A stretch of DNA of 16,723 nucleotides from a bacterium. GTDB taxonomy: Bacteria > RBG-13-66-14. Both the position numbers and the translations under genes were made by a program. Below, one piece after another: positions 43 through 16,483 of the stretch. Under the pieces are notes generated by a model that had not been told where the DNA came from, made no database searches, and was given only the letters and a program-made list of their open reading frames with translations. The stretch lies in NCBI GenBank assembly GCA_035528375.1, contig DATKYS010000002.1, forward strand, positions 1 through 16,723. The letters are read 5' to 3'. Every line of letters begins with the position of its first letter. Positions within the stretch are counted from its first letter, which is position 1.

Positions 43-71
43 TTGACAGACTCCCCATCCGGTGCTACGAT
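43..71 (+). promoter_or_regulatory. Sigma-70-type promoter of nikR
   Basis: A perfect -35 box TTGACA (43-48) is followed by a 17-nt spacer and a -10-like TACGAT (66-71). Transcription would begin near 78, leaving a short leader before the nikR Shine-Dalgarno at 90-96. The TTG inside the -35 box also opens the nikR reading frame, but it is better explained as promoter than as start codon. Confidence 0.7.
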
Positions 72-90
72 ATTGGCGAATCGTGCTACG
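62..90. promoter_or_regulatory. Candidate NikR operator over the nikR -10 box
   Basis: Two symmetry elements overlap the -10 box. One is an inverted repeat ACGAT (67-71) - N8 - ATCGT (80-84). The other is a direct repeat GTGCTACG at 62-69 and 83-90, spaced 21 bp (two helical turns). Ribbon-helix-helix NikR proteins bind spaced dyads; the E. coli site is GTATGA-N16-TCATAC, which this does not match. Autoregulation through this site is inference from position and symmetry. Confidence 0.4.
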
Positions 91-646: not shown

Positions 647-1291
647 ATGCACGTTCCCGATGGTCTTCTGCAACCGGCGGTGTGGGCCGGCGGCTGGGCC
701 CTGGGCGGGAGCGGCCTCGCCTGGGCCGTCGTCCGCGCCCGGAAGGTGATGGAAAAGGGGCTGGTCCCGCTGGCCGGCGTGCTGGCGGCCTTCATCTTCG
801 CCGCCCAGATGCTCAACTTCCCGATCCTGCCCGGCGTCTCCGGCCACCTGGTCGGCGCGGCGCTGGCGGCCATCGCCCTCGGGCCCGCCATGGGCATCCT
901 GGTCATCTTCACCGTCCTGGCCGTCCAGTGCCTCCTCTTCGCCGACGGCGGCGTCACGGCGCTGGGGCTCAACACCCTGGCCATGGGCGTGACCGGCGCC
1001 CTCGTGGGGTACGGCCTCTACCGGCTCGTCGGCGGGGGGACCCCCTCCGGCTGGCGCCGCCGGGCGGCCGCTTTCACCGCCGGATTCGGCGCCACCGTGG
1101 TCGCCTCCGCGGTGACCTCCACCGCCATCTGCCTCTCCACACCATACCCCCCCGCGACCGTATTCGGCCTCATGGTCGGGTTCCACGCCCTGGTGGGCGT
1201 CGGCGAGGGGCTCATCACCGTAGTGGTGGTGGAGGTGCTGCAGGGGGCGGGCGTCCTGGAGCGGCGACTGGAAGGGGGGGTGGCGCGATGA
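647..1291 (+). CDS. cbiM: ECF transporter substrate-binding permease CbiM/NikM
   Basis: This 214-residue integral membrane S-component captures Ni2+ or Co2+ for an energy-coupling-factor transporter. The mature N-terminus MHVPDG is the family hallmark. In NikM structures the metal is held by the Met1 amino group, His2 and a second histidine at position 67, and His67 is present here in GVSGHLVGA. Further family segments are QCLLFADGGVTALGLN and several hydrophobic helices across residues 12-205. A ribosome-binding site AAGGAG (637-642) precedes the ATG. The gene overlaps nikN by 4 bp (ATGA). The neighbouring nikR and the PDGLE partner argue for nickel over cobalt, but specificity cannot be read from sequence alone. 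The cognate cbiQ and cbiO lie 6.6 kb downstream, beyond three unrelated genes. Confidence 0.93.
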   Translation: MHVPDGLLQPAVWAGGWALGGSGLAWAVVRARKVMEKGLVPLAGVLAAFIFAAQMLNFPILPGVSGHLVGAALAAIALGPAMGILVIFTVLAVQCLLFADGGVTALGLNTLAMGVTGALVGYGLYRLVGGGTPSGWRRRAAAFTAGFGATVVASAVTSTAICLSTPYPPATVFGLMVGFHALVGVGEGLITVVVVEVLQGAGVLERRLEGGVAR

Positions 1292-1590
1292 AGCGGCTCA
1301 CCATCGTCCTCATCGTATTGGGAGCCCTGGCGCTGGTCGCGGCGCTGGCCAGCCCCCTGGCCTCGCCCTACCCCGACGGCCTCGAGGCGGCCCTGGAGCG
1401 GGCGACCGACGAAGGTGCAGCGGCAGAGTTGGAGGAGGGGGAACACCTGGTGGACTCGCCCTGGCCCGACTATGACGCGGGCGGCGACGGTTCAACGGGC
1501 TCCACCATCCTGGCCGGCATCCTCGGCGCCATCGCCACCCTCGCCCTCGGCCTCGGCCTGGCGAAGCTCGTCTCGCTGAAAAAGGCCTAG
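1288..1590 (+). CDS. nikN: PDGLE-domain small ECF component (NikN-like)
   Basis: A 100-residue membrane protein that accompanies CbiM/NikM in nickel/cobalt ECF transporters. It has two hydrophobic segments, residues 4-26 and about 72-94, flanking a polar loop. The name-giving motif YPDGLEAALE is at residues 28-37, just after the first helix. The start is the ATG overlapping the cbiM stop codon, indicating translational coupling. In related systems this component stabilises or assists metal loading of the M subunit. It is the last gene before a strong terminator at 1620-1648, so the first nickel transcription unit ends here without its T and A components. Confidence 0.88.
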   Translation: MKRLTIVLIVLGALALVAALASPLASPYPDGLEAALERATDEGAAAELEEGEHLVDSPWPDYDAGGDGSTGSTILAGILGAIATLALGLGLAKLVSLKKA

Positions 1591-1619
1591 AACCAAGCCA
1601 ACAGCGCAGCTCCACTCAT

Positions 1620-1648
1620 AAATACCGACCACACAAAGGTCGGTATTT
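1620..1648 (+). terminator. Perfect 11-bp terminator hairpin after nikN
   Basis: AAATACCGACC (1620-1630) and GGTCGGTATTT (1638-1648) are perfect inverted repeats with a 7-nt loop ACACAAA. The A-rich 5' arm and T-ending 3' arm allow termination on either strand, although the T-tract is short. It separates nikR-cbiM-nikN from the secreted-protein operon. Confidence 0.7.
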
Positions 1649-1675
1649 GCCACTAGAAAAGAGTGTAAATATATT
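1647..1675 (+). promoter_or_regulatory. Promoter of the secreted-protein operon
   Basis: TTGCCA (1647-1652), a 17-nt spacer and TATATT (1670-1675) form a good sigma-70-type promoter. The surrounding DNA is much richer in A+T than the neighbouring genes. The -35 box overlaps the last bases of the preceding terminator by two bases. Transcription would start near 1682, about 34 nt before the 1716 start codon. Confidence 0.65.
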
Positions 1676-1715
1676 GTAGAGTGAGCTTTGTTGCCATTTG
1701 CGGTGGAGGTACCCA

Positions 1716-4598
1716 ATGCGAGGGAAGGTAGTCGCACTGTTTTTATTCCTGCCCCTGATCACACCCATCCTGGCCGATGATTGGATTCAGGACAGCTGGG
1801 TGGACGGTCCGGCGCCGGAAGGGGATTGGCTCTGGAACCAACACCGGAAGAGCTTCGACACGTCTGTGAACCTCGCCTGGTGGCGCTACGTCGTGGACCC
1901 GGGGACCGGGGACAACCACATCTTTCCCTACGCACCGAGTACGAACCCGGATGATGTCGGCGAATTCGGCGATGGGATAGAGCTCATGCGTGTGATCACC
2001 TGCGAGACCAACTACTTCGACCACGGTTCCGAAACCTTCTACCAGGTTGTCGGCGGACTGGCCGCAAACGGCAAACTCGCCATCTACTACTCGGACGACT
2101 ATGGCGTTACCTGGAATGAAAACATTAGTCCGAATTTACGTGGTCCGCTCCTCTACATCGCCCAGAGACCGGACACAAACGAGCTGCACGTGGCGGCCAA
2201 CACGAATGATGGCTTGGAGATCTACATCCTGGACGGCCTCGACGGCGCCTGGGATCTACAAACCGAGATTCCGGACGCGACGTTCACCAACGCCCGCTTC
2301 CTCTTCGACGACTCCTACCACGGCTATCTGACCGTCTCTGATACCGACCAAACGGACGCCAGGCTCTGGCTCTGGGATGGAAACGACTGGAGTACCGACG
2401 GGGACAAATTCCCCGGGGATCCGTTCCACCTGTACGCCATCTGGCGGATGGGACATACGGATGATCTCTTCGTCGCCGTAGATAACAACGTGGGCAACGA
2501 CCTGCTCTACTACTCGACCGACGACGGGGACTCCTGGAGCGAATGGACGGTGGATTACTACGGCGGTCCGGTGGACGCGCCCCAATTCGCCTCCACCGGT
2601 CCCTCCACCAGCGGGATGAATACTTACGTCTACCTCGCCACGTCCAACGCCCACGGATCGCCGCTGGTCTGTCGGATCAACGACAACGATCCCACGGACT
2701 TCTACCTCTTCGATTTCAAATACACGGGCCTGACCGAAGTCCACGACATCCTGGTCGCAGACGACGGCATCGTCTTCATCTCTGGGATAGGCGTCGGCGG
2801 GGCCGGACTGTGGATCTCCGACGACGACGGTCTGTCGTGGACCGGCAACTACTTTGACGACCCCTGGGACGATCTCGACGCGGTCCCCGTTCTCTTACAG
2901 GACCCCAACTTCGGTTTTATCTACGCATCGGGCAATTCGTTGATTCTGGAGACCCCCTTCATCGTGTTCATGGCCCATCCCACCGCCGAGATTATCAGCC
3001 TGCCCTACGACTGCGGGGAACCCTCCACCTTCGACTCCATCGAAATCCCGGTCGACCTGCCGGAAAATTCCGATCTGAAAGTCTACCTCCGTTCCGACGA
3101 CACCCCGCAGATGAACGGCGATTGGGTCTTGATAGATAACTATTACAACCTCGAGGGCATCGAACAGGGGATGCGGTACGTTCAGTACAAGCTCGAATTT
3201 TTCGCAGGAAACGACGTGCCCTATTCCTTCCCCGTCGTGGAAAGTTTTCGGTTGAGCTACAACCCGGGTGGGGATCCGGACAGCCCCCGGGTCGTGGAAA
3301 CCATCCCCAGCGACGGCGCTCAGGGCGTCTCCCTCAACACGGATATCTGGGTCGTCTTTAGCCGATCCATGGACCTTGCCAGCTTCGAGGGGAACTTCTT
3401 CATCTACGACGGCGAGATCGAGATCCCGTGGACGGGCCGGCTCGAGGGAGACGACGAATCCACTTTCGTCGCCGATCCCGAACAAAGTCTGCCGCCCCTG
3501 AAGCTGATCGAGGTCCTGTTGTACGAGGGCATCACCGACTCGGACGGGACCCCCCTCGAGGACGACAACGGCCCGGCGGAGGGCGCCTACGACTTCGGCT
3601 TCGAAACCGGCGGGTCGAGCAGACCGGACGGTCCCCGGGTCGAGGAAACCGTCCCCCCCGACGGCGCTAAGGACGTGCCCCTCAACACGAATATCTTAGT
3701 CAAGTTCGACCGCCGCATGGATCTGGACAGCTTCAGGGAGAACTTCCACATCTTCGCCGACGGGATCGAGATAGATTGGGACGGCCGGCTCGAGGGCGAC
3801 AATTTCGAGTTCATCGCCGAACCCGACCCCGGCCTGCCCCCCCGAAGCCTGATCAGTGTTCTCTTGGATTTCGGGATCACCGACGAGGACGGGAAGCCCC
3901 TCGAGGACGGCAACGGCCCGGAGGAAGGCGCCTACGATTTCAGCTTCACCACCGGCGGCGAGGGGGACATAGACGAGGACCCGCCCGAGGTCACCGACGT
4001 CAAGGCCAACCCCAACCCCACCTTCGGCGCCGACGTGGTGAGCCTGACCTGCAAAGCCGATGACGCGGAGCGCGGCGGCTCGTTCATCGCCGGCGGCGAG
4101 TACTTCGTGGACGACGCGGGGCAGGACGGGGAGGGCATGCCCATGTCGGCGGGGGACGGCGATTTCGACGACAGTTACGAGGAGCTCCTGGCTCTGGTTG
4201 ACGCGAGCGGCTGGGCCGACGGCTCGACCCACATCCTCTACGTCCACGCGCGGGACGCGGCGGGCAACTGGTCCCCCCTGCAATCCGTCGTGGTGGAGAC
4301 CGAGGGCGACTTCTTCGACCCGTCGCGGGCGTACGTCTGGCCCAATCCCGCCAGCGACGCGGCCCACTTCGCCTTCACCGTGGGCGGCGACGCGCGGGTC
4401 GAGCTCGTGGTTTACGACCTGGCCGGCCGCGAGGTGCACCGCGAGCGGGGCGAGTTCGTCGTGGGAACACCGGGGGCCTTCGTCTGGAACCTGGACGGCG
4501 TCGCCAGCGACGTTTACATTTTCCGCCTGGCCGCCGAAGAGATAAGCGGGATGGGGCGCTCCGGCTCCGTGATGAAGAAGCTGGCCGTCGTTCGCTAA
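1716..4598 (+). CDS. Secreted BNR-repeat / tandem Big_5 protein with type-IX-like sorting domain
   Basis: A 960-residue exported protein of unknown substrate. A signal peptide covers residues 1-20 (hydrophobic VVALFLFLPLITPILA, then DD). Residues about 25-430 look like a beta-propeller with BNR/Asp-box motifs (S-x-D-x-G-x-x-W): YSDDYGVTW near 125, YSTDDGDSW near 266, ISDDDGLSW near 367. Residues about 520-632 and 636-748 are two Big_5 (SbsA-like Ig) domains in tandem. An Ig-like domain with many acidic residues follows at about 752-863. Residues 868-960 are a FlgD/type A sorting-type C-terminal domain: VWPNPAS, VVYDLAGREVH, WNLDG, DVYIFRL, ending KKLAVVR. Such tails direct proteins through the type IX pathway and onto the surface in Bacteroidota-like cells. 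The ATG at 1716 is preferred for its GGAGGT (1705-1710) and good signal peptide. The PorV-like gene follows after 58 bp. Ligand or enzymatic activity cannot be inferred. Confidence 0.85.
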   Translation: MRGKVVALFLFLPLITPILADDWIQDSWVDGPAPEGDWLWNQHRKSFDTSVNLAWWRYVVDPGTGDNHIFPYAPSTNPDDVGEFGDGIELMRVITCETNYFDHGSETFYQVVGGLAANGKLAIYYSDDYGVTWNENISPNLRGPLLYIAQRPDTNELHVAANTNDGLEIYILDGLDGAWDLQTEIPDATFTNARFLFDDSYHGYLTVSDTDQTDARLWLWDGNDWSTDGDKFPGDPFHLYAIWRMGHTDDLFVAVDNNVGNDLLYYSTDDGDSWSEWTVDYYGGPVDAPQFASTGPSTSGMNTYVYLATSNAHGSPLVCRINDNDPTDFYLFDFKYTGLTEVHDILVADDGIVFISGIGVGGAGLWISDDDGLSWTGNYFDDPWDDLDAVPVLLQDPNFGFIYASGNSLILETPFIVFMAHPTAEIISLPYDCGEPSTFDSIEIPVDLPENSDLKVYLRSDDTPQMNGDWVLIDNYYNLEGIEQGMRYVQYKLEFFAGNDVPYSFPVVESFRLSYNPGGDPDSPRVVETIPSDGAQGVSLNTDIWVVFSRSMDLASFEGNFFIYDGEIEIPWTGRLEGDDESTFVADPEQSLPPLKLIEVLLYEGITDSDGTPLEDDNGPAEGAYDFGFETGGSSRPDGPRVEETVPPDGAKDVPLNTNILVKFDRRMDLDSFRENFHIFADGIEIDWDGRLEGDNFEFIAEPDPGLPPRSLISVLLDFGITDEDGKPLEDGNGPEEGAYDFSFTTGGEGDIDEDPPEVTDVKANPNPTFGADVVSLTCKADDAERGGSFIAGGEYFVDDAGQDGEGMPMSAGDGDFDDSYEELLALVDASGWADGSTHILYVHARDAAGNWSPLQSVVVETEGDFFDPSRAYVWPNPASDAAHFAFTVGGDARVELVVYDLAGREVHRERGEFVVGTPGAFVWNLDGVASDVYIFRLAAEEISGMGRSGSVMKKLAVVR
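3279..3960 (+). repeat. In-frame tandem duplication encoding two Big_5 domains
   Basis: Two consecutive segments repeat with a 348-bp period (116 codons). GTCGTGGAAACC at 3291 recurs as GTCGAGGAAACC at 3639, and both units close with nearly the same stretch encoding GAYDF-F-TGG. The reading frame is preserved. The nucleotide similarity is obvious by eye, so the domain duplication is fairly recent. Confidence 0.8.
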
Positions 4599-4656
4599 AA
4601 CCGGACTCAAAGGGCGCCCTGGAGCTTACTTTCCGCACTCCCTTTAGGAGAACGCG

Positions 4657-6609
4657 ATGCCGAAGCGCTTCGTGTCAACGATTCTACTCCTCTTTCTGAC
4701 CGCGGTGGCCCTCGCCGGGAACGCCGGGGCGACCTTCCTGTTGCTGCCGGAGGACATCCGGGCCGTGGGCATGGGCGGCACCGGCGCCGGGGAAGGCGGG
4801 AACCTCGCCGGGCTCTTCTACAACCCGGCCAGCCTGGGCTTCCGCACCGAGGCCGCGATAAACGCCGCCTTCACGAGCTGGATCGCCGACACGAGCCTCG
4901 GCTACCTGGCCGGCTGTCTGCCCATCGGGAAGGCGGGGGTTCTCTCGCTGGGCGCGACCTACATGAACGTGGGCGGCTTCGAGCGGCGGACCGGCGACAC
5001 CGACGAGCCCGAAGGCACATTCGACGCCATGGGCCTGGCCGCCGAGGCGGGCTACGGAATCGAGCTCTTCGACGGCTTCTCGGCCGGCCTCACCGCCGGG
5101 GTGGTCCACCAGCGCCTGGACACCTACTCGGCCACCGGGGCGAGCTTCGATTTGGGCGTCCAGTACCGCCTCCCCTTCGACTGGCTCACCGTGGGCGTGG
5201 CGGGGAGGAACCTCGGCACGCCCCTTACATTCATCAGCGCCCAAACCCCGCTGCCGTCGAACGTTGTCGGCGGCGTCAACCTGAGCTTCCTGGAGGGCGA
5301 CCTCGGCTTCAACCTGGACGCCGAGTACCACCTCGACGACGCCGTGGACAACCTCTACGCCCACGTGGGCGGCGAGTACGTCCTTTTCGACACGGCGGCA
5401 CTCCGTGTCGGCTACACCTTCGGCTACGGTTCCCAGGGCGGCTCGATGACCGGCCTCTCCGCCGGAATCGGCCTCCAGGTCGTCGGCATCACCCTCGATT
5501 TCGCCTACACAAACCAGGGCGACCTGGGCGGCTCCTACCGCGCGGGGCTGGGGTACGACTTCGCCTACGTCACCAGCCGCAGGGACACACTGCAGGATTA
5601 CCTGAACCAGATCGCCGAGCTGGGGCGGGCCACCAGCCGCGCCTTCTACACCGAGGGGCAGGACGCGCTCGGGCAGGAGCGTTACGCCGACGCCGTCAGC
5701 GCCTTCGACAAGGCCCTGATCTGGGACCCGTCCTACACCGAGGCGGCCCTGGCGTACTACGCGGCCGTCGGGCTGGTCCGAGAGTTCGAGATCAACGACC
5801 GCATCTCCCAGGGCAAGCTCTACCTGGAGAATGAGGACTACGTCTTGGCCCTGGCCGAGTTCTCCGCCGCCCTGGGGATCGATCCCGCAAACACCGACGC
5901 CCTCAGCCTTATCACCTCAGCCTCGAACGGCCTGTCCAGGCAGTTGGCCGAGCGGGAGGCCAAGGTGGCCAAGCTCTCCCAGAAGGCCGCCGATCTCTTC
6001 GCCGCCGAGGACTACCGCGGGGCCATCACCGCCTGGAGCGAGGTCCTGGTCCTGGACCCCACGAACAGCCTAGCCCTGGAGTACCTGAGTCTGTCCGAGA
6101 GCAACCTGGCGAAGCAGGTGAAACAGGAGAAGCGCCTGGCACGGAATCTGGAGGAGCAGGGGCGTTACAACGAGGCCCTGGACCACTGGATGAAGGCCAA
6201 CGAGCTGGCCCCCGACGACCCGGAGCTGCCCGTGGCCATCAGCCAGTGCCGAGACAACCTCTCCCTTCAGATAAAAACCCTCGTCGAGGACGGCATCGCC
6301 CGCTACGATAGAGGCGAGTACGCCGCCGCCAAGGACCTCTTCCACAAGGCGCAGCGCCTCGACCCCGGCAACCGGAAGGCCGCGGAGTACCTGGCGAAAA
6401 TCGAGGCCGCCCAGACCACGACGGTGCGTGAATCGGACCCCATCACCGCCAACGAGTTCTACCTGAAGGGCGTCCAGGCTTACACGCGCAAGGACTACGA
6501 GCTGGCGATATACTACTGGGAACAGTGCCTCTACTACCAGCCCGATCATCCCAAGGCGGGCCCGAACATCGAGCGGGCGCGGCAGCTCCTGGCGGCCCTG
6601 CAGGGGTAG
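4657..6609 (+). CDS. PorV/PorQ-like outer-membrane barrel fused to six TPR repeats
   Basis: A 650-residue protein with a signal peptide at residues 1-25 (cleavage near NAGA-TF). Residues about 27-305 match the PorV/PorQ (UPF0164, FadL-like) family: LLPEDIRAVGMGGTGAGEGG with LFYNPASLGF, then alternating beta strands rich in Gly and aromatics. Residues about 325-648 hold six TPR units, each with a D/A-P-x-N/D turn (for example ALIWDPSYTEA, ALGIDPANTDA, VLVLDPTNSLA, AQRLDPGNRKA, CLYYQPDHPKA). PorV in type IX secretion shuttles substrates carrying the C-terminal sorting domain to the attachment complex. The upstream gene encodes just such a substrate, so the two may work as a pair. The TPR half would lie in the periplasm and could bind partners. 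AGGAG at 4646-4650 supports the ATG. The fusion architecture is unlike classical PorV, which is a barrel only. Confidence 0.82.
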   Translation: MPKRFVSTILLLFLTAVALAGNAGATFLLLPEDIRAVGMGGTGAGEGGNLAGLFYNPASLGFRTEAAINAAFTSWIADTSLGYLAGCLPIGKAGVLSLGATYMNVGGFERRTGDTDEPEGTFDAMGLAAEAGYGIELFDGFSAGLTAGVVHQRLDTYSATGASFDLGVQYRLPFDWLTVGVAGRNLGTPLTFISAQTPLPSNVVGGVNLSFLEGDLGFNLDAEYHLDDAVDNLYAHVGGEYVLFDTAALRVGYTFGYGSQGGSMTGLSAGIGLQVVGITLDFAYTNQGDLGGSYRAGLGYDFAYVTSRRDTLQDYLNQIAELGRATSRAFYTEGQDALGQERYADAVSAFDKALIWDPSYTEAALAYYAAVGLVREFEINDRISQGKLYLENEDYVLALAEFSAALGIDPANTDALSLITSASNGLSRQLAEREAKVAKLSQKAADLFAAEDYRGAITAWSEVLVLDPTNSLALEYLSLSESNLAKQVKQEKRLARNLEEQGRYNEALDHWMKANELAPDDPELPVAISQCRDNLSLQIKTLVEDGIARYDRGEYAAAKDLFHKAQRLDPGNRKAAEYLAKIEAAQTTTVRESDPITANEFYLKGVQAYTRKDYELAIYYWEQCLYYQPDHPKAGPNIERARQLLAALQG

Positions 6610-6702
6610 GCCCGGTTTACGGGCGGCGGACTGTGAACCGCATGGCGGAGCGGGCGACGCGTCCTCTATCAATCGGGGGGCCGACGCCCGGGAGAGTGAG
6701 CG

Positions 6703-8163
6703 ATGCGGATTTCCATCAGCATCAAGCTGGCTGTGGCGATTCTGGTCCTGATGGTCGCCTTGACGGTGGCGCTCGCCTGGCGTCTCGAGGCCGAGGCCCG
6801 GCGGCAGGCCATCGGCCAGATACGCCTCCGGGGCGAGGGCGTGGCCCGGATGTTGGCAGTCAACTCCGCGGACGAGCTGGGGCGCCTGGACGACCTGCGC
6901 CTGGCCCAGTTCGTCGTGGACGCCTCCACGCTGCCCGACGTGCTCTACGCCGCCGTGGTGGACTCCGACGGCATCGTCTTCGCCCACTCCGAGTTCGAAG
7001 AGGGGGGCATCGGGAAGCCCTTCGCGCCGTCCTGGGAGGGCTACGCGCCGGTGGAGGAGGGGGTGGAGGACAACCCCTTCATCTACGAGGGCCAGCCGGC
7101 GCGCGACGTCGCGGCACCCATCGTTATCGGCGACTCGAAGACCCGCCGCCGCATCGGCGAGGTCCACGTGGCCATCTCCGAGGCCCCTGTGGCCCGGGCG
7201 GTGGAGGAGCTGCGCCGCACGATGTTCCTCATCGCCGGAATCGCCCTAGGGGCGGCGTTCATCCTGGCCATCCTCTACGGGGTAGTCCTCACCCGGCCGC
7301 TGCGCCGCATCGCCGCCGGCGTGGGCCGCATCGGCAAGGGGGACCTCAGCTACCGCATCAAGGTTAAGCGCAAGGACGAGATCGGCGACCTGGGCCGGGC
7401 CGTCAACAACATGGCCGAGAGCCTGAAGCAGAGCAACTACATCCGCAACGCCTTCCGCCTCTACGTCAGCCGTCAGGTGGCGGACCAGATAATCAGCAAT
7501 CCGCAGCTCCACCTGAAGCAGTCCCGGGGTCAGCGCCGCGAGGTCACCATCATGTTCGCCGACATACGCGGTTTCACGTCCCTGGCCGAGAAGATGCTTC
7601 CCGAGGAGGTGGTCGCCGTCCTCAACACGTACCTGAGCTTCTTGACCGAGTCGGTCTTCGCCTACGACGGCACTCTGGACAAGTTCATGGGCGACAGCGT
7701 GATGGCCGTGTTCGGTGCTCCGCTGGACCAGAAACACCACGCCCTCCGCGGGATCCTGGCCGCCCTGGAGATGCAGCAGGGCATCACCCGGCTGAACCGG
7801 GAGCGGGCGAAAGCCGGGCTGCAGACCGTCTGCATAGGCATCGGCATGACCACCGGCCAGGTCATCGTCGGCAACATCGGCTCCGATGAGCGGTTGGACT
7901 ATACCGCCATCGGCGACACGGTCAACCTGGCCAGCCGGCTCGAGGGGCTGGCCTGTGAGGGCCAGATAATCGTTAACGAGGAGGTCCACCGTTTAGTGCG
8001 GGACTACATCGTCGCCGAGAAGCTGGAGCCGATGATGGTCAAGGGCAGGTCCGCCTCGGTCCAGTCCTGGAATATCACCGCTCTGAGGCCCGGGGTTATA
8101 CTGCCCGAGGACATCCCCCACCACGAAGACGGGAGGAGGGAGTCCGCGCTGAAGAGAAAATGA
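6703..8163 (+). CDS. Membrane-bound class III adenylate cyclase with HAMP domain
   Basis: A 486-residue receptor cyclase expected to make cAMP from ATP. Transmembrane helix 1 is at residues 7-26, an extracytoplasmic single-Cache-like sensor at about 27-172, helix 2 at 174-197, HAMP at about 198-250 and the catalytic domain at about 275-455. Metal-binding Asp287 (FADIRGFTSL) and Asp331 (KFMGDSV) are present, and Lys327 and Thr401 are the adenine-specifying pair. Asn408 and Arg412 in the NLASRLE motif are the transition-state residues. Thr instead of Asp at the base-recognition site is the class IIIb pattern of cyanobacterial CyaC, a group that includes bicarbonate-responsive enzymes. All catalytic residues are intact. 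GGAGAG (6691-6696) precedes the ATG. The gene lies 93 bp after the PorV-TPR gene and 18 bp before cbiQ, so co-transcription is likely. A stand-alone cyclic-nucleotide-binding protein at 9698 is the obvious receptor. The sensor ligand is unknown. Confidence 0.93.
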   Translation: MRISISIKLAVAILVLMVALTVALAWRLEAEARRQAIGQIRLRGEGVARMLAVNSADELGRLDDLRLAQFVVDASTLPDVLYAAVVDSDGIVFAHSEFEEGGIGKPFAPSWEGYAPVEEGVEDNPFIYEGQPARDVAAPIVIGDSKTRRRIGEVHVAISEAPVARAVEELRRTMFLIAGIALGAAFILAILYGVVLTRPLRRIAAGVGRIGKGDLSYRIKVKRKDEIGDLGRAVNNMAESLKQSNYIRNAFRLYVSRQVADQIISNPQLHLKQSRGQRREVTIMFADIRGFTSLAEKMLPEEVVAVLNTYLSFLTESVFAYDGTLDKFMGDSVMAVFGAPLDQKHHALRGILAALEMQQGITRLNRERAKAGLQTVCIGIGMTTGQVIVGNIGSDERLDYTAIGDTVNLASRLEGLACEGQIIVNEEVHRLVRDYIVAEKLEPMMVKGRSASVQSWNITALRPGVILPEDIPHHEDGRRESALKRK

Positions 8164-8181
8164 CGGACGCGGGTTGAGGCG

Positions 8182-8925
8182 ATGACCCCCTGTGAGACCA
8201 TCCAGACCGGCCCGGCGCGTCCGCGTCCCCGCGTCGCCCTGGGCGGGGCGCTCGTCACGGCCGCGGCCGCGGCGGCCCTCCCCGCGGGCGAGATCGTCGG
8301 CGCCGGCCTCGTCGCCGGGCTGCTCCTGGCGAATTGGATTTTCTTGAAGCCCCGCCCCCGGGGGCTTCTGCGCTGGCTCCTGCGGGGCGTGGGCATCCTG
8401 ACGCTCATCACCGCCGCCACCCCCTTCTTCGGCCCGGGGACCCCGGTCGGGAAAATTCTCGGCCTGACGGTCTACCGGGAGGGGCTCCTTTTATGGGCCT
8501 CCATCGTCTCCCGCGGGGCGGTGGCCATCCTCGCGATGGGGGCCGCCGTCTCCGCCCTGGGCGCGAACGGGGCGGTCATCGCCCTGGCCCGCTTCCCCCT
8601 GCCGCGCGTCATCTCGGGCCTCTTCGCCGTGAGCTGGCTCCAGCTCCACCTGCTGGGGGAGGAGATGACCCGGCGGGCGCGGGCCGTGGAGCTGCGTGGA
8701 CCGGGCGCCGGGCGCGCCCTCCGGCGAAGGGCGCTGGGGGGGACCCTGGGCGCCGTGTTCAAAAAGAGCCTGGACCGGGGGCACCGGCTGGGGCTGGCCA
8801 TGAGCCTGCGCGGCGACGGCGAGCCGACATTCACCAAAGGAGCCCCGCTGCGGGCGCTGGACTGGATTTACCTGGTCGTCGCCATCCTGCCTCTGGGCGT
8901 CACCCTCTGGACCTACATTGACTGA
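8182..8925 (+). CDS. cbiQ: ECF transporter T-component CbiQ
   Basis: A 247-residue membrane protein that couples the ATPase to the substrate-binding CbiM. It has several hydrophobic helices (about 20-52, 70-90, 105-140, 220-245). The cytoplasmic coupling helices contain the diagnostic small motifs: ARAVELRG (about 170) and LAMSLRGD (about 208), each an Ala-Arg-Gly-like signature that docks into the ATPase. It starts 18 bp after the cyclase stop behind a GAGG at 8175-8178 and overlaps cbiO by 8 bp. The partner cbiM and nikN genes are 6.6 kb upstream, an unusual separation. Specificity for nickel rests on the presence of nikR and the PDGLE protein. Confidence 0.9.
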   Translation: MTPCETIQTGPARPRPRVALGGALVTAAAAAALPAGEIVGAGLVAGLLLANWIFLKPRPRGLLRWLLRGVGILTLITAATPFFGPGTPVGKILGLTVYREGLLLWASIVSRGAVAILAMGAAVSALGANGAVIALARFPLPRVISGLFAVSWLQLHLLGEEMTRRARAVELRGPGAGRALRRRALGGTLGAVFKKSLDRGHRLGLAMSLRGDGEPTFTKGAPLRALDWIYLVVAILPLGVTLWTYID

Positions 8926-9631
8926 CGGACACGCAGCCTCGACGCTGGTACTGGATGGCCTGACCTGCCGCTACCCCGAGGGGCCGACGGTGCTTGCGGG
9001 CGTGGACCTCCGGCTGGCCGCCGGGGAGCGCGTGGCGCTTCTGGGCGGGAACGGCGCCGGGAAGTCCACCCTCCTCCTCTGCCTGCCCGCCGCGCTGCCC
9101 TACTCCGGGCGCCTGGCGGTGGACGGGCTGGAGGCCCGGGGGAACGAAAAGGCCGTCCGGGAGAGGGTGGGGCTGGTGTTCCAGGACCCCGGCGACATGC
9201 TCTTCGCCCCCTCCTGCCGCGAGGAGGTGGCCTACGGGCCGCTGTGCCGCGGGTGGCCGGCGGAGGAAATCCAGGAGGAGGTCCACGGCTGGCTCCACTG
9301 GGCCGGGTTGGCGGACAAGGCGGACATCCCGCCGTTCCGGTTGTCCTACGGGGAAAGGCGGCGGCTGTCCCTGGCGGCGGTGATGGTCTGCCGCCCGAGC
9401 CTTCTGGCCCTGGACGAGCCGGCGGCCATGCTCGACCCGGCCGCGATCCGCGACCTCGTCCAGCTCCTTACCTCCCTGCCCCAGACCATGCTCGTCGCCA
9501 CCCACGACCTGGGCTTCGCGGAAAAAGTGGCCGACCGCGCCGCGGTCCTCTGCGGGGGGAAGGTCGTCTACGACGGGGACCTCCCCACCCTGCGCGACCA
9601 CCCGGACCTGGCGGAGTGGCGCCTCGGGTGA
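8918..9631 (+). CDS. cbiO: ECF transporter ATPase CbiO
   Basis: A 237-residue ABC ATPase powering the nickel/cobalt ECF transporter. Visible motifs are Walker A GGNGAGKST (residues 43-51), Q-loop VFQDPGDMLF, signature LSYGERRRLSLA, Walker B LLALDEPAAMLDP and the H-loop VATHD. Only one ATPase is encoded here, so the functional complex probably uses a CbiO homodimer. The start is a TTG at 8918 overlapping the end of cbiQ by 8 bp. No good ATG or GTG occurs before the conserved LVLDGLTCRYPEG strand, so a TTG start with translational coupling is the best reading. The gene ends just before a new promoter for the cyclic-nucleotide-binding protein. Confidence 0.93.
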   Translation: MTDGHAASTLVLDGLTCRYPEGPTVLAGVDLRLAAGERVALLGGNGAGKSTLLLCLPAALPYSGRLAVDGLEARGNEKAVRERVGLVFQDPGDMLFAPSCREEVAYGPLCRGWPAEEIQEEVHGWLHWAGLADKADIPPFRLSYGERRRLSLAAVMVCRPSLLALDEPAAMLDPAAIRDLVQLLTSLPQTMLVATHDLGFAEKVADRAAVLCGGKVVYDGDLPTLRDHPDLAEWRLG

Positions 9632-9635
9632 GCCC

Positions 9636-9664
9636 TTTTCACCCCCGTCCCAATATTCTATAAT
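9636..9664 (+). promoter_or_regulatory. Promoter of the cyclic-nucleotide-binding protein
   Basis: A consensus -10 TATAAT (9659-9664) lies 17 nt downstream of TTTTCA (9636-9641), a 4/6 match to TTGACA. It starts five bases after the cbiO stop codon. The predicted transcript leader is about 27 nt. It gives the downstream gene independent expression from the cbiQO operon. Confidence 0.7.
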
Positions 9665-9697: not shown

Positions 9698-10141
9698 ATG
9701 GATACCAACGACCTGGCGCAGATTCAGCTCTTCGCCAACCTGGAGGAGGAGCAGCTCGAGAAGATAGTGGGGCTCTTGCACCGGCTCGAGGTGCAGCCGG
9801 AGAACGAGATCGTCGTCGAGGGCGAGACCGGTCAGCGGCTCTACATCATCGTCGAGGGCACGGCCCAGGTGCGACAGGTGCTGGACACCGACCGGGCCAA
9901 GGTGCTGGCCTCCCTGGGGAAGGGGAATTTCTTCGGCGAGCTGGCGCTGTTGGATTCCGGGCCCCGCTCGGCCAGCGTGGTCGCCGTGACGCCCTGCGAG
10001 TTGTACTACCTGGACCGTGACGAGTTCATGGACCTTCTCAAGAAGTACCCCGAGATGGCGATAAAGCTGGCGCAGACGCTGGCCGGTCGCCTGCGCCGCG
10101 CCAACCGGCAGATAAAGGACCTCTCGCTCTACACATTGTGA
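9698..10141 (+). CDS. Stand-alone cyclic-nucleotide-binding domain protein
   Basis: A 147-residue protein made almost entirely of one CRP-type cyclic-nucleotide-binding domain, without a C-terminal helix-turn-helix. The beta-roll carries the phosphate-binding cassette FGELALLDSGPRSAS. Glu81 would contact the ribose and Arg90 the cyclic phosphate, so binding is likely intact. Residues 108-140 form the C-terminal helix, ending in a basic stretch (RLRRANRQIK). Without a DNA-binding domain it probably acts by binding another protein. The class III cyclase encoded 1.5 kb upstream is a likely source of its ligand. It has its own promoter at 9636-9664 and GGGGGAAG ahead of the ATG. An alternative is a protein that has lost nucleotide control, but the conserved Glu and Arg argue against that. 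Confidence 0.88.
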   Translation: MDTNDLAQIQLFANLEEEQLEKIVGLLHRLEVQPENEIVVEGETGQRLYIIVEGTAQVRQVLDTDRAKVLASLGKGNFFGELALLDSGPRSASVVAVTPCELYYLDRDEFMDLLKKYPEMAIKLAQTLAGRLRRANRQIKDLSLYTL

Positions 10142-10600
10142 CCACCCCCTCTCCCTTTAAGGGAGCGGCGTGCCGACGGGCCGGTGTGAGGGTAATGCGT
10201 GAAAACGGCGTGGACTAAAGTCCCCGCCCTACATTTAGCGCATGACGGAAACGGCCCCCCTCTCCCTCCGGGTGTGGGGATGGGGGTGAGGGCCACCTTA
10301 TAAAAAGCGGCGGGGAAAGGATTCCCCGCCCTACGTTTACGGACAACGATAATTCGACGTAGGGGCGACCGGTAGGACGAGTCCTCCACGGTCGCCCGCG
10401 GGCGGGTGTGGACACCCGCCCCTACGCCATCGCAATCGCGGGTGAGGAGTGCAGCGGCCCCCTCTCCCTTTTAGGGAAAGGGCCGGGGTGAGGGGTGCAG
10501 CTATCCCCTCTGCCTTCCAGGGAGCGGCGCGCCGACGGGATTAAGGGTGAGGGCTTCCTTATAATAACGGGCCGACCTGAAGGTCGGCCCCTACGTCATC
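10142..10600 (-). repeat. Array of palindromic repeats, inverted orientation, between cNMP gene and tyrS
   Basis: This stretch holds no credible gene. It is a mosaic of hairpins whose family flank GTTGCGATGACGTAGGGGC reads on the minus strand. Perfect stems are GGCGGGGAA/TTCCCCGCC (10309-10330), GGGCGACCG/CGGTCGCCC with a nested AGGAC/GTCCT (10363-10397), GGGCGGGTGT/ACACCCGCCC (10400-10421) and GGGCCGACC/GGTCGGCCC (10569-10590). Between them lie CCCTCTCCC...GGGTGAGGG modules at about 10145-10196, 10253-10294, 10459-10496 and 10505-10554. Two of these share GGGAGCGGCG-GCCGACGGG at 10161 and 10520. Confidence 0.8.
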
Positions 10601-10616
10601 GCAACACACGAACCAC

Positions 10617-10639
10617 CGCCCCCGGTGGCGCCGGGGGCG
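10617..10639 (+). promoter_or_regulatory. GC-rich hairpin immediately before the tyrS -10 region
   Basis: CGCCCCCGG (10617-10625) pairs perfectly with CCGGGGGCG (10631-10639) around a TGGCG loop. It occupies the place where a -35 box for the TAGAAT at 10649-10654 would be. It may terminate transcription from upstream, although only a broken T-stretch follows (CGTTGTTAT), or act as a binding site. Confidence 0.5.
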
Positions 10640-10648
10640 CCGTTGTTA

Positions 10649-10654
10649 TAGAAT
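10649..10654 (+). promoter_or_regulatory. Probable -10 box of tyrS
   Basis: TAGAAT at 10649-10654 lies 19 nt before the tyrS ATG. No -35 box is recognisable at the expected distance, because the GC-rich hairpin is there. The sequence after it, CCCGAAAG-CCCG, closely resembles the one after the 9659 TATAAT box, which suggests a shared initiation region. Confidence 0.4.
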
Positions 10655-10673
10655 CACCCCGAAAGGCCCGACC

Positions 10674-11933: not shown

Positions 11934-12088
11934 GAGCGACCCTCTGCGATGACGTAGGGGCCGACCTTCAGGTCGGCCCGCATTTACGAATGTAGGGCGG
12001 GGATTTGCCGGAGGCATAGCTAGCTTCGCTCGGTTCCTATCCCCGCCGCTTTTTAAAGGAAGCCCTCACCCCGGCCCTCTCCCACGGG

Positions 12089-12372
12089 GAGAGGGAGGCC
12101 GTTTCTCGTCGGTTGCAATGACGTAGGGGCGGGTGTCCACACCCGCCCGCGTTTGTTCATCCACCGACGTTAGCCAAAATGTAGGGCGGGGACTTTAGTC
12201 CCCGCCGTTTTTTCAAAGGTGGCCCTCACCCTCATTCCCTCTCCCGGAGGGAGAGGGAGGCCGTTTCTCGTCGGTTGCGATGACGTAGGGGCGGGTGTCC
12301 ACACCCGCCCGCGTTTGTTCATCCACCGCCGTTAGCCAAAATGTAGGGCGGGGACTTTAGTCCCCGCCGTTT
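12089..12372 (+). repeat. 162-bp tandem duplication within the repeat array
   Basis: The 122-bp block 12089-12210 recurs at 12251-12372 with two mismatches: A12117 versus G12279 and A12167 versus C12329. The bases in between are similar but more diverged, with CCCTCACC modules of different length. The near identity shows a recent duplication of a unit that carries two hairpins. Confidence 0.9.
12185..12213 (+). terminator. Repeat hairpin acting as intrinsic terminator
   Basis: GGCGGGGACT (12185-12194) pairs with AGTCCCCGCC (12197-12206), followed by G and six T (12208-12213). This is a good rho-independent terminator downstream of tyrS. The duplicate at 12347-12372 has the same stem but only three T, so it would terminate less well. 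Confidence 0.65.
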
Positions 12373-12450
12373 CCGCTCGCGGCAAAACCCATTCGTAACA
12401 CGAATAATTTTCGTCGCGGTAACGGGGTCCAGCGCCCCGCGCTGGTGGTA

Positions 12451-14088: not shown

Positions 14089-14934
14089 ATGCAGGACGCG
14101 AAACGGTTCCACGACGCCACGACGGAGCTCAGGAAATTTTTCGTCGAACGGGGCTTCATCGAGGTACCCGTGCAGTCGCGGCTGTCCATCCTGGCCGCCT
14201 GCGAGGACCCCTACACGATAAGCATGTTCACCTTCGCCGGGGAGAAGTGGCCCCTGCCGCAGACGGGGCAGATGTGGCTGGAGTACGAGCTTCTGACCCA
14301 CCCCCGGTGGCCCGGCGTCTTCTGCGTGAGCACGTCATACCGCAACGAGCCCCGCCCGATTCCGGGCCGGCACGACCTCGTATTCCCCATGTTCGAGTTC
14401 GAGGCGCAGGGGGGCGTGGCCGACCTGGTGGCCCTGGAAAAGGCGCTCATCGGAGAGCTCGGGATGGGCGACTCCCGCATCGCGGATTACAACGAGGTGT
14501 GCGAGAAGTACGGGTCGGCGGCCATAGGGGCGCGGGAGGAAGAGCTGCTGGAACGAGATTACGGATGCCCCGTGATTTTGACCCGGTTCCCCTTCCGGTC
14601 GCACCCGTTCTGGAACATGAAGGAAATCGGTGACAGGCTCTTCAACAAGGTGGACGTCATCCTCCACGGGATGGAGACCGTCGGCAGCGCGGAGAGGAGC
14701 TGCAACCCCGGGGAGATGCGGGCCAACTTCCACGGCGTCAGCCACGGGAAGTACGCCGAGAAGCTGTTCGAGCTTTTCGGGCGGGAAAGGGTGATGCGGG
14801 AGCTGGACGCCTACCTGGCCCTGGACATGTTCCCGCGGTTCGGTGGTGGGATAGGGCTGACGCGGCTCGCCCGGGCGTTGAGGCTGGAGGAGGAGCGTGG
14901 GGCATCGGCGCTGCGGGAGGCCGAATGCGGCTGA
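14089..14934 (+). CDS. Class II aminoacyl-tRNA-synthetase-like protein (Asp/Asn/Lys type), catalytic core only
   Basis: A 281-residue homologue of the catalytic domain of class IIb synthetases. Motif 2 is seen as STSYRNEPRP with Arg85, then GRHDLVFPMFEFE (Arg94, His95, Glu103). Motif 3 is GGGIGLTRL with the ATP-binding Arg259. VDVILHGMETVGSAERS resembles the amino-acid-site strand of AsnRS/AspRS. There is no N-terminal OB-fold anticodon domain, so it is unlikely to be a normal synthetase. Related proteins include the archaeal AsnRS-derived asparagine synthetase (about 294 residues), and other paralogues aminoacylate or adenylate proteins or small molecules. AAGGAAGGA before the ATG is a strong ribosome-binding site. 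A long leader with two terminators precedes it. Substrate and product are not determinable here. Confidence 0.75.
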   Translation: MQDAKRFHDATTELRKFFVERGFIEVPVQSRLSILAACEDPYTISMFTFAGEKWPLPQTGQMWLEYELLTHPRWPGVFCVSTSYRNEPRPIPGRHDLVFPMFEFEAQGGVADLVALEKALIGELGMGDSRIADYNEVCEKYGSAAIGAREEELLERDYGCPVILTRFPFRSHPFWNMKEIGDRLFNKVDVILHGMETVGSAERSCNPGEMRANFHGVSHGKYAEKLFELFGRERVMRELDAYLALDMFPRFGGGIGLTRLARALRLEEERGASALREAECG

Positions 14935-15007: not shown

Positions 15008-15346
15008 TTAACCATCGCGTAACAAATCGCGCACGTACTTAATTATTTTCGGGACATCCGAATTAAGCGTGTACCAGATGATATCTATGTCCACAACGTC
15101 GTACTCGTGAATGAGGACGTCACGCATTCCAGCCATCGCCGCCCAGTCCATAGCCGGGTGGTTTTGCTTCAGCTCGACCGAGAGTCTCTTCACCGCTTCA
15201 CCGATGATCTCGAATCGCCGTACAACGGCATCCTGAATCATTTTATCAGCCTCTATGTCCTTCTTACTCCGCTTCTTCGTGTATTCCAGGATGCGTTCGG
15301 CGGCTTCCAGAATATCACCTAGATATGTTTTATCACGCTTTTTCAT
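15008..15346 (-). CDS. hepT: HEPN-domain ribonuclease toxin HepT
   Basis: A 112-residue all-helical HEPN (DUF86) protein, the toxin of the HepT-MntA type VII system. The RNase motif R-x4-H-x-Y is complete: Arg75, His80 and Tyr82 in MRDVLIHEYD. In characterised systems the antitoxin adds AMP to a tyrosine of this motif and so disarms the enzyme. Other family features are FEIIGEAVKRL and the closing IKYVRDLL helix. The ATG at 15346 is preferred over upstream codons; the frame overlaps the 3' end of mntA by 14 bp, indicating coupled translation. It converges with the synthetase-like gene across a 73-bp gap that holds only a weak hairpin (14967-14984). The A+T content is visibly higher than in most neighbouring genes, in keeping with horizontal acquisition. 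Confidence 0.92.
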   Translation of the reverse strand: MKKRDKTYLGDILEAAERILEYTKKRSKKDIEADKMIQDAVVRRFEIIGEAVKRLSVELKQNHPAMDWAAMAGMRDVLIHEYDVVDIDIIWYTLNSDVPKIIKYVRDLLRDG

Positions 15347-15638
15347 AAATCGTCCTCGCCGTGTTGAGTATTTCCTCCCTGCGCATTGCGTTTCCACTAT
15401 TGAGAAGACCCCTCTTGCTTATCAGATCAACCTTCCTGTTGAAAAGACGCACCAATTCATACCTGATGTTGACGAAATCCAGGAGCGTTATCGGTATATT
15501 GTCCTCGAATTCCACCAGTAGGTCCACGTCGCTCTCGGGACCCGATTCCCCCCGCAATACCGATCCGAAAAGGGAAAGCTCTCGGATCCCCCACCGCCCG
15601 CACAGGCGGCGAAGCTCTTCCTCGGGTACATTCAGCAT
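15333..15638 (-). CDS. mntA: Minimal nucleotidyltransferase antitoxin MntA
   Basis: A 101-residue MNT-fold nucleotidyltransferase, the cognate antitoxin of the HEPN toxin encoded next. The active-site motif LFGSVLRGESGPESDVDLLVEF-type is complete: Gly25-Ser26, Arg29-Gly30, then Asp37 and Asp39 as metal ligands. It would transfer AMP to the HepT tyrosine. AGGAGG (15643-15648, minus strand) lies 4 nt before the ATG and overlaps the stop codon of the L,D-transpeptidase gene upstream, so all three genes are probably on one transcript. The antitoxin precedes the toxin, which helps neutralisation during translation. Length is normal for the family. Confidence 0.92.
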   Translation of the reverse strand: MLNVPEEELRRLCGRWGIRELSLFGSVLRGESGPESDVDLLVEFEDNIPITLLDFVNIRYELVRLFNRKVDLISKRGLLNSGNAMRREEILNTARTIYEKA

Positions 15639-15646
15639 GATTCCTC

Positions 15647-16483
15647 CTACTCCGCCCAGATGACCGTGTCGCCCAACTTCAGGTACACGAAGACCTCCTC
15701 GATGTCCGCGTTCAGGGACCGGACGCAGCCGTGGCTGACGGCGGTGCCTATCAGGTCGGGCTCGTTGGTCCCGTGCATGCCGTAGGTGGGGAGGTCTATG
15801 CCGATCCAACGCGAGCCGAGGCCGTTCTCCGGGTCGCCGGGCGGGTAGCTCCGGCCCTCCCAGTTCCAGGTGGGATTTTCCTTCAGGCGGACGATATCGT
15901 ACACGCCGGGGGGCGTTGGCGAAGAGGGACCGCCGACGGCCACCGGCCAGGTCTTCACCGACCGGCCGTCCACGAAGAGGGTGGCCCGGCACTCCGAGAT
16001 GTCCACGTAGACGACCGTCCCCTCGCCGTAGCCCATCCCGGAAAGCTCATCGGTGGAGATTATCGGGGCCAGACCGTCGGGCCAGAGGGCCAGCGTCTGC
16101 ATATCGAAGTCGGCGCCCAGCCGCAGAATGACCGCGGCCTCGCTGGAACCGGGAGGGACCGGGATAAGCCGGTCGGAATCCAGGGAGAACAGGAGCGCCA
16201 GGTCCCGGGCGGCGGCCCCGTAGGCCGGCTCGTACAGGACCACCGTACGCTCGGGGACACCGTCCGGGGGATCGGTGATGCGCCAGCCGCGGGCGGTGGT
16301 GTCGTTGGCCAGGGTGGAGAGTCCGGCCTCCAGGGCGGCGTCGGACCCGCCGTCGGCGCGCTCCACCAGGAGGAGAAGACGCGGCGGCGCCAGGGGCGGA
16401 TCGCCCCCGGGGTCGGACCCGCCGCAGGCCGTCACGCCGGCGAGCAAGAGGAGCGCCAGGATCGTACGAGCGAGTGGTTTCAA
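15647..16483 (-). CDS. Lipoprotein L,D-transpeptidase (LytR_C-like plus YkuD domains)
   Basis: A 278-residue cell-envelope enzyme expected to form L,D cross-links in peptidoglycan or to attach proteins to it. The lipoprotein signal peptide ends in the lipobox VTAC, making Cys20 the lipidated residue. Residues about 35-135 resemble the LytR C-terminal domain: a V-x-x-A-x-x-G beginning, RTVVLYEPAYGAAARDLALLF, and a closing VILRLGADFD. The YkuD domain spans about 155-278, with catalytic His237 (YGMHGTNEP), the SHGCVR signature (His251, Cys253, Arg255) and AVGGPSSPTPPG. The start is taken as TTG at 16483, preceded by GGGGGA. It lies just downstream of an extended -10 promoter at 16511-16519 and yields a perfect lipoprotein signal. 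The longer ATG start at 16582 would precede the promoter. The gene leads the operon with mntA-hepT. Confidence 0.85.
   Translation of the reverse strand: MKPLARTILALLLLAGVTACGGSDPGGDPPLAPPRLLLLVERADGGSDAALEAGLSTLANDTTARGWRITDPPDGVPERTVVLYEPAYGAAARDLALLFSLDSDRLIPVPPGSSEAAVILRLGADFDMQTLALWPDGLAPIISTDELSGMGYGEGTVVYVDISECRATLFVDGRSVKTWPVAVGGPSSPTPPGVYDIVRLKENPTWNWEGRSYPPGDPENGLGSRWIGIDLPTYGMHGTNEPDLIGTAVSHGCVRSLNADIEEVFVYLKLGDTVIWAE

Follow-up and report, generated by a model that had tools for sequence, protein, structure and literature searches.

We describe a locus of Candidatus Coatesbacteria in which a nickel importer operon and a surface-protein cassette very probably form two interleaved but separable modules, the cassette having ancestrally occupied the site between nikN and cbiQ, with later losses in individual lineages and with cbiQ and cbiO carried on the cassette transcript. 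The window (the whole stretch of DNA that was analysed), 16,723 nucleotides without any N, opens contig C2 of a genome of 2.63 Mb; this genome was placed in Candidatus Coatesbacteria because a named Coatesbacteria record contains a CbiM with 78% identity to that of the window. Module one would be a group I ECF nickel importer, encoded by nikR-cbiM-nikN and cbiQ-cbiO, and module two a phylum-wide cassette consisting of a type IX-type surface protein, a PorV/PorQ-TPR barrel and an sCache-HAMP adenylate cyclase. Comparison of genomes shows the cassette already between nikN and cbiQ in an ancestor that two or more genera of the family have in common.

All genes from nikR through the cNMP gene are on the forward strand. 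The first group comprises the nickel-responsive repressor gene nikR (positions 100–510; NikR_C 93 bits, 1e-26; NikR equivalog 119.2, cut-off 105), cbiM/nikM for the metal-binding S component (647–1291; CbiM 184.7 bits, cut-off 23.1, 2.4e-54) and a nikN-type PDGLE subunit gene (1288–1590; PDGLE 56.7, cut-off 27, 2.2e-15). After 125 bp there follows the gene for a secreted cargo protein (1716–4598; Big_5 74.2, cut-off 23.6, with a sub-threshold BNR match and a T9SS-type C terminus), 58 bp further on that of a PorV/PorQ-family outer-membrane barrel with ∼340 residues of TPRs (4657–6609; PorV_fam 158.3, cut-off 90, 3.4e-46), and after another 93 bp that of a membrane adenylate cyclase with sCache_3-HAMP-Guanylate_cyc architecture (6703–8163; 99.9 bits, cut-off 21.9). 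The T component gene cbiQ (8182–8925; CbiQ 55.9, cut-off 25, 6.1e-15) begins 18 bp beyond the cyclase stop codon and overlaps the ATPase gene cbiO (8918–9631; ABC/CbiO-like match, ABC_tran above cut-off), and 66 bp downstream of cbiO stands a gene for a stand-alone cNMP-binding protein of 147 amino acids (9698–10,141; profile match). Pfam and NCBIfam profile matches thus bear out what the initial annotation had described, a separation of nikR-cbiM-nikN from cbiQ-cbiO by three genes, and they agree with its naming of these as a secreted sorting-domain protein, a PorV-TPR fusion and an adenylate cyclase.

We assign NikR, CbiM, NikN, CbiQ and CbiO as the parts of a NikMNQO importer. The predicted CbiM starts with MHVPDG, which contains the Met-His of an S component and aligns from residue 1 to MHIPEG of the solved CbiM (4m58), and the N subunit, T component and ATPase of a group I ECF transporter each score above their cut-offs (PDGLE, CbiQ and ABC_tran, respectively). 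Cbi/NikMNQO systems are the commonest Ni/Co importers of prokaryotes, and their control by NikR has been predicted previously (PMC2667541). We infer nickel as the substrate from the adjoining nikR and from the joint absence of cbiM/cbiQ and NiFe hydrogenase: NiFe hydrogenase genes are present in the window's genome, and searches of genomes G004 and G006 for cbiM, cbiQ and NiFe hydrogenase found none of the three. The locus resembles group I ECF NikMNQO systems with NikR in its full component set, its domain signatures and its adjoining nikR, but unlike them it has 6.6 kb of unrelated genes and an internal promoter-like site parting M-N from Q-O. CbiQO would energize CbiM as usual. Their probable expression apart from cbiM, and their position on a different contig in a genome of another genus (G005), would also fit CbiQO being a general energizing module for other S components in the manner of group II ECF transporters, for which a position beside cbiM is irrelevant. 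Against this, the window's genome holds a single cbiQ and a single cbiM, the two genes are missing together in G004 and G006, and the neighbors of cbiQO are nickel genes; we regard a general module as very improbable.

The arrangement had been called a departure from a usually contiguous operon, and indeed cbiQ lies at most 3 kb downstream in 60 of 71 informative loci (named cbiM loci with enough sequence). Among the remaining 11, one has an upstream cbiQ and one has cbiQ 4.4 kb downstream. Separation of M-N from Q-O is uncommon, yet not unique to the window. One contiguous operon is a usual, not strictly defining, property of NikMNQO systems; here, nikN and cbiQ are 6.6 kb apart. The prevalence of the contiguous order, which also occurs in another family of the phylum, is what would be expected if a mobile surface cassette had recently, and by chance, interrupted a cbiMNQO operon that was until then intact in this lineage, one of two explanations offered in the initial annotation. 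The comparison of relatives contradicts it.

Two of three genomes from the same genus (G002 and G003) share the cassette position. In G002 the cassette is located between nikN and cbiQ as in the window (identities are 93% for NikR, 95% for CbiM, 83% for PorV-TPR, 84% for the cyclase, 92% for CbiQ and 99% for the cNMP protein), the join between cyclase gene and cbiQ crossing a scaffold gap of 32 N. G003 contains cbiM-nikN-cargo-PorV and then reaches a contig end. The third genome, G001, appears contiguous, its nikN and cbiQ being separated by a 168-bp spacer. This spacer aligns over its length, up to 20 bp short of cbiQ, to the nikN-cargo region of G002 (score 162, whereas none of 500 shuffles exceeded 50) and retains the hairpin, the AT-rich promoter region, the ribosome site and ∼15 cargo codons (the first cargo codons are MRGTAIGLASFFF in the G001 spacer and MRGKAICLVSFFV in G002). 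Its last ∼20 bp before cbiQ resemble the sequence upstream of cbiQ in the window (GCGGG..G..CGATGA), and the 19-codon remnant ends in an ATGA that overlaps the cbiQ start. Orthologues of the cargo, of PorV-TPR and of this cyclase were looked for in G001 (96% complete) and none was found. We interpret the spacer as the deletion scar of the cassette. In the cbiM tree, the cassette-bearing G003 falls outside a group formed by G001, G002 and the window, and since G001 is nested within that group, it has lost the cassette, its contiguous order being secondary. G001, G003, G004 and G005 are fragmented metagenome-assembled genomes.

The comparison of gene order that the initial annotation had proposed did yield a relative with contiguous genes, G001, but the scar in this genome leaves chance insertion unsupported. 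In G005, two cargos come directly after cbiM-nikN, then PorV-TPR (61% identity), the cyclase (66%) and pta, so that the adjacency of cbiMN and cassette extends to a second genus. The additional G005 cargo ahead of the orthologous one (L144, 1104–2744) is a BNR_4 protein whose Por_Secre_tail match exceeds the cut-off. A recent insertion is refuted by the same split in G002, the cbiMN-cassette order in G003 and G005 and the scar in G001; it would demand independent gains in G002, G003 and G005, a recombinase was sought among the genes of the split and none was found, and gene trees part the families as taxonomy does. We give it almost no credence.

The cbiQO-cNMP genes of G005 are found on a separate contig and are preceded by a membrane-protein gene present in three genomes only (G004, G005 and G006). 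In G005 and G006 this gene adjoins cbiQO-cNMP, and in G004 it directly follows the cyclase gene and is itself followed by the cNMP gene. Pieced together from these contigs, the older order was likely cyclase-membrane protein-cbiQ-cbiO-cNMP, with cbiMN-cargo-PorV upstream. G004 (99% complete) has cargo-PorV-TPR and cyclase-membrane protein-cNMP and, as described above, no cbiM or cbiQ. One of the two modules was later lost in individual lineages: the cassette in G001, as the scar shows, and probably the nickel genes in G004.

Further out in the phylum, PorV-TPR, one or more cargos and the cyclase are adjacent in G008, G009, G010 and G011, away from nickel genes, with selA upstream of the cassette in G008 and G011; the cassette genes are unlinked or incomplete in G012 and G013. 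Both the PorV-TPR tree and the cyclase tree separate the families in line with taxonomy. Because the same gene types adjoin across the phylum and the trees follow taxonomy, the cassette is an old module, which among the genomes compared lies inside the nickel locus in one family only. A CbiM tree could not be used to date the origin of the transporter and was dropped: family f1 has a long branch, only weakly joined to its neighbor, and f3 is not its sister. A description of the cassette was sought in the literature searched, where the phylum is named in six papers, once in each, and not found, and a search on PorV2/PorU2 gave nothing relevant.

The second explanation in the initial annotation was a deliberate linkage of metal uptake to surface and cAMP functions. 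In its obligate form it is refuted by cassettes without nickel genes (in the phylum and in G004) and by nickel genes without a cassette (in G001). A looser functional coupling, in which metal uptake and surface/cAMP signaling are co-regulated, for example by raising limiting T and A components together with secretion, would account for the cbiMN-cassette linkage kept in two genera, for the 18-bp gap that probably puts cbiQO on the cassette transcript and for the cassette promoter region left before cbiQO by the deletion in G001. The reciprocal absence of the modules in G004 and G001, the different contig of cbiQO in G005 and the unlinked cassettes elsewhere in the phylum speak against it, and we consider coupling unlikely. 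Two interleaved modules, each separable from the other, remain our preferred reading.

How the genes may be transcribed was assessed from promoter-like sites. Upstream of nikR we located TTGACA-17-TACGAT (43–71, forward strand; promoter scan) and a repeat, GTGCTAC-N14-GTGCTAC (62–68 and 83–89, forward strand), which overlaps the -10 element of this promoter, is largely conserved in G002 and has no further GTGCTAC in the window. It is a candidate NikR operator of this phylum, with an unusual half-site orientation. In G008, GTAGCAC-N13-GTGTTAT is found upstream of cbiM. The GTGCTAC repeat was looked for in positions 1590–1716 and is absent there, and NikR control of the cassette was rejected on this ground; NikR would control nikR-cbiM-nikN.

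Downstream of nikN lies a hairpin with a 12-bp stem (1619–1649, forward strand; z = -6.45), which is conserved and shows a compensatory change from T-A to G-C between relatives. It had been called a terminator. The hairpin is real, but the sequence after it has no run of U (G001 and G002 come least close to one), and the hairpin was not among the hits of a terminator scan. We rejected the reading as an intrinsic terminator as unsupported, and read-through beyond nikN is possible. A new promoter had also been claimed near 1647, where we find the promoter-like site TTGCCA-17-TATATT (1647–1675, forward strand) with 10 of 12 matches; sites of this kind number five in 10.7 kb compared with 1.0 expected. 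The AT-rich -10 region is kept in G001, G002 and G003. From this promoter, cargo, porV-TPR, cyclase, cbiQ and cbiO would be read as one transcript, and co-transcription of cbiQO with the cassette, apart from the permease, is likely: the 18-bp gap between cyclase gene and cbiQ hardly fits a promoter outside the cyclase gene, and G001 is consistent with this assignment, as the cassette promoter region and leader abut cbiQ after the deletion. A shared transcript is a matter of operon architecture and does not argue for any dependence of nickel uptake on the cassette. The cNMP gene would have its own promoter, a TTTTCA-17-TATAAT site (9636–9664, forward strand) whose TATAAT is unchanged in G001 and G002.

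A genome search for CCGACC-N3-9-GGTCGG returned 100 matches per strand count (palindromes counted on both strands; control, 7). Among the matches listed, most belong to dispersed intergenic repeats and form another short hairpin, one with a 4-base loop; the count therefore has no bearing on the nikN hairpin. The CCGACC/GGTCGG palindrome occurs in many copies in the genome, and dispersed intergenic repeats are located at 10,140–10,670 and 11,934–12,450 of the window (for example GTAGGGGCCGACCTNNAGGTCGGCCC and GGCGGGTGTCCACACCCGCCC).

The cargo protein contains a signal peptide, a BNR-like propeller, two Big_5 domains and a T9SS-like C-terminal domain. Its tail scores below the T9SS cut-offs (TIGR04183, 18.6 versus 23; PF18962, 18.4 versus 27), its last 96 residues match the tail of the T9SS-dependent family NF052323 at 7e-14, and the G004 orthologue passes TIGR04183 (30.6, cut-off 23). 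Because the window's genome encodes an SprA-type translocon (266.8 bits, cut-off 200) and has 48 sorting-domain matches, a T9SS-type export route is available. The neighboring barrel reaches 58.9 with the PorV equivalog model (cut-off 250) and 104 with that of PorQ (cut-off 220), and we classify it as a member of the PorV/PorQ family, not as a PorV equivalog. The TPR fusion recurs in other families of the phylum. PorV-TPR is most naturally read as the dedicated partner of the cargo, which would be exported and displayed with its help. An SprA-like translocon, sorting-domain matches and a PorV-family barrel beside a cargo gene are shared with type IX secretion; unlike there, the barrel is TPR-fused, misses the equivalog cut-offs of both PorV and PorQ by a wide margin and forms a pair with an adenylate cyclase, and the host is a Coatesbacterium rather than a member of the Bacteroidota.

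The cyclase contains the class III motifs FADIRGF, DKFMGD and VNLASR in the alignment, with the metal-binding Asp, the adenine Lys and the transition-state Asn/Arg. Its sCache_3-HAMP-catalytic order and catalytic motifs are those of class III adenylate cyclases with sensor and HAMP domains, but it is tied genetically to a secretion partner and a cargo, not to a transcription factor. It would sense a periplasmic ligand and produce cAMP, which the neighboring cNMP protein, carrying the cyclic-nucleotide pocket motif FGELALLDSGPRSAS, may read. The genome encodes eight cNMP proteins matching that of the window, so pairing this one with the cyclase is a guess from position. Against G001 and G002, the window's cNMP protein is 97–99% identical, more than any other protein of the locus, but only 44–47% identity is left in its orthologues from other genera of the family.

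The history of the cargo gene differs from that of its neighbors. A mosaic (recombinant) stretch (2200–3550, forward strand) is shared with the G003 lineage at 87–93% nucleotide identity, compared with ∼80% in the flanks. At fourfold sites, 90% are identical to G003 (n = 233), versus ∼66% in cbiM, nikN and PorV-TPR (Fisher p = 3e-11). G002, the closest relative elsewhere, carries a different cargo N-terminal domain: its first 515 residues are 45% identical to those of the window and the remainder 79%. Shorter cargo tails, 3' copies of the cargo, additionally stand between the cargo gene and PorV-TPR in G002 (354 amino acids) and G003 (105 amino acids). The cargo slot corresponds to 1716–4598 in the window, 6312–10,007 in L142 and 1018–4038 in L143. 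With few genomes at hand, the pattern suggests allele exchange at a swappable surface-protein slot. The cassette could, speculatively and with the odds well against it, be a trans-envelope signaling and display device, in which PorV-TPR docks a swappable surface protein, the sCache cyclase reads the complex, the cNMP protein is the effector, and recombination exchanges the cargo much as in surface antigens or polymorphic tips.

Farther downstream in the window, a HepT-like ribonuclease gene adjoins that of a nucleotidyltransferase-domain protein (15,008–15,992, reverse strand), likely a HEPN/MNT toxin-antitoxin pair. A 281-residue protein (14,089–14,934) has a class II aaRS-like catalytic domain (tRNA-synt_2), no further domain being found, and could represent an asparagine synthetase or a tRNA-synthetase paralogue.

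Taken together, our comparison shows that operons of unrelated function can stay interleaved across genera while each module is losable without the other, with G001 providing a natural deletion relevant to where the promoter is placed. For a phylum on which hardly any work exists, it further brings to light a conserved T9SS-type cassette of PorV-TPR, cargo and adenylate cyclase, whose cargo gene appears to be exchanged between lineages.
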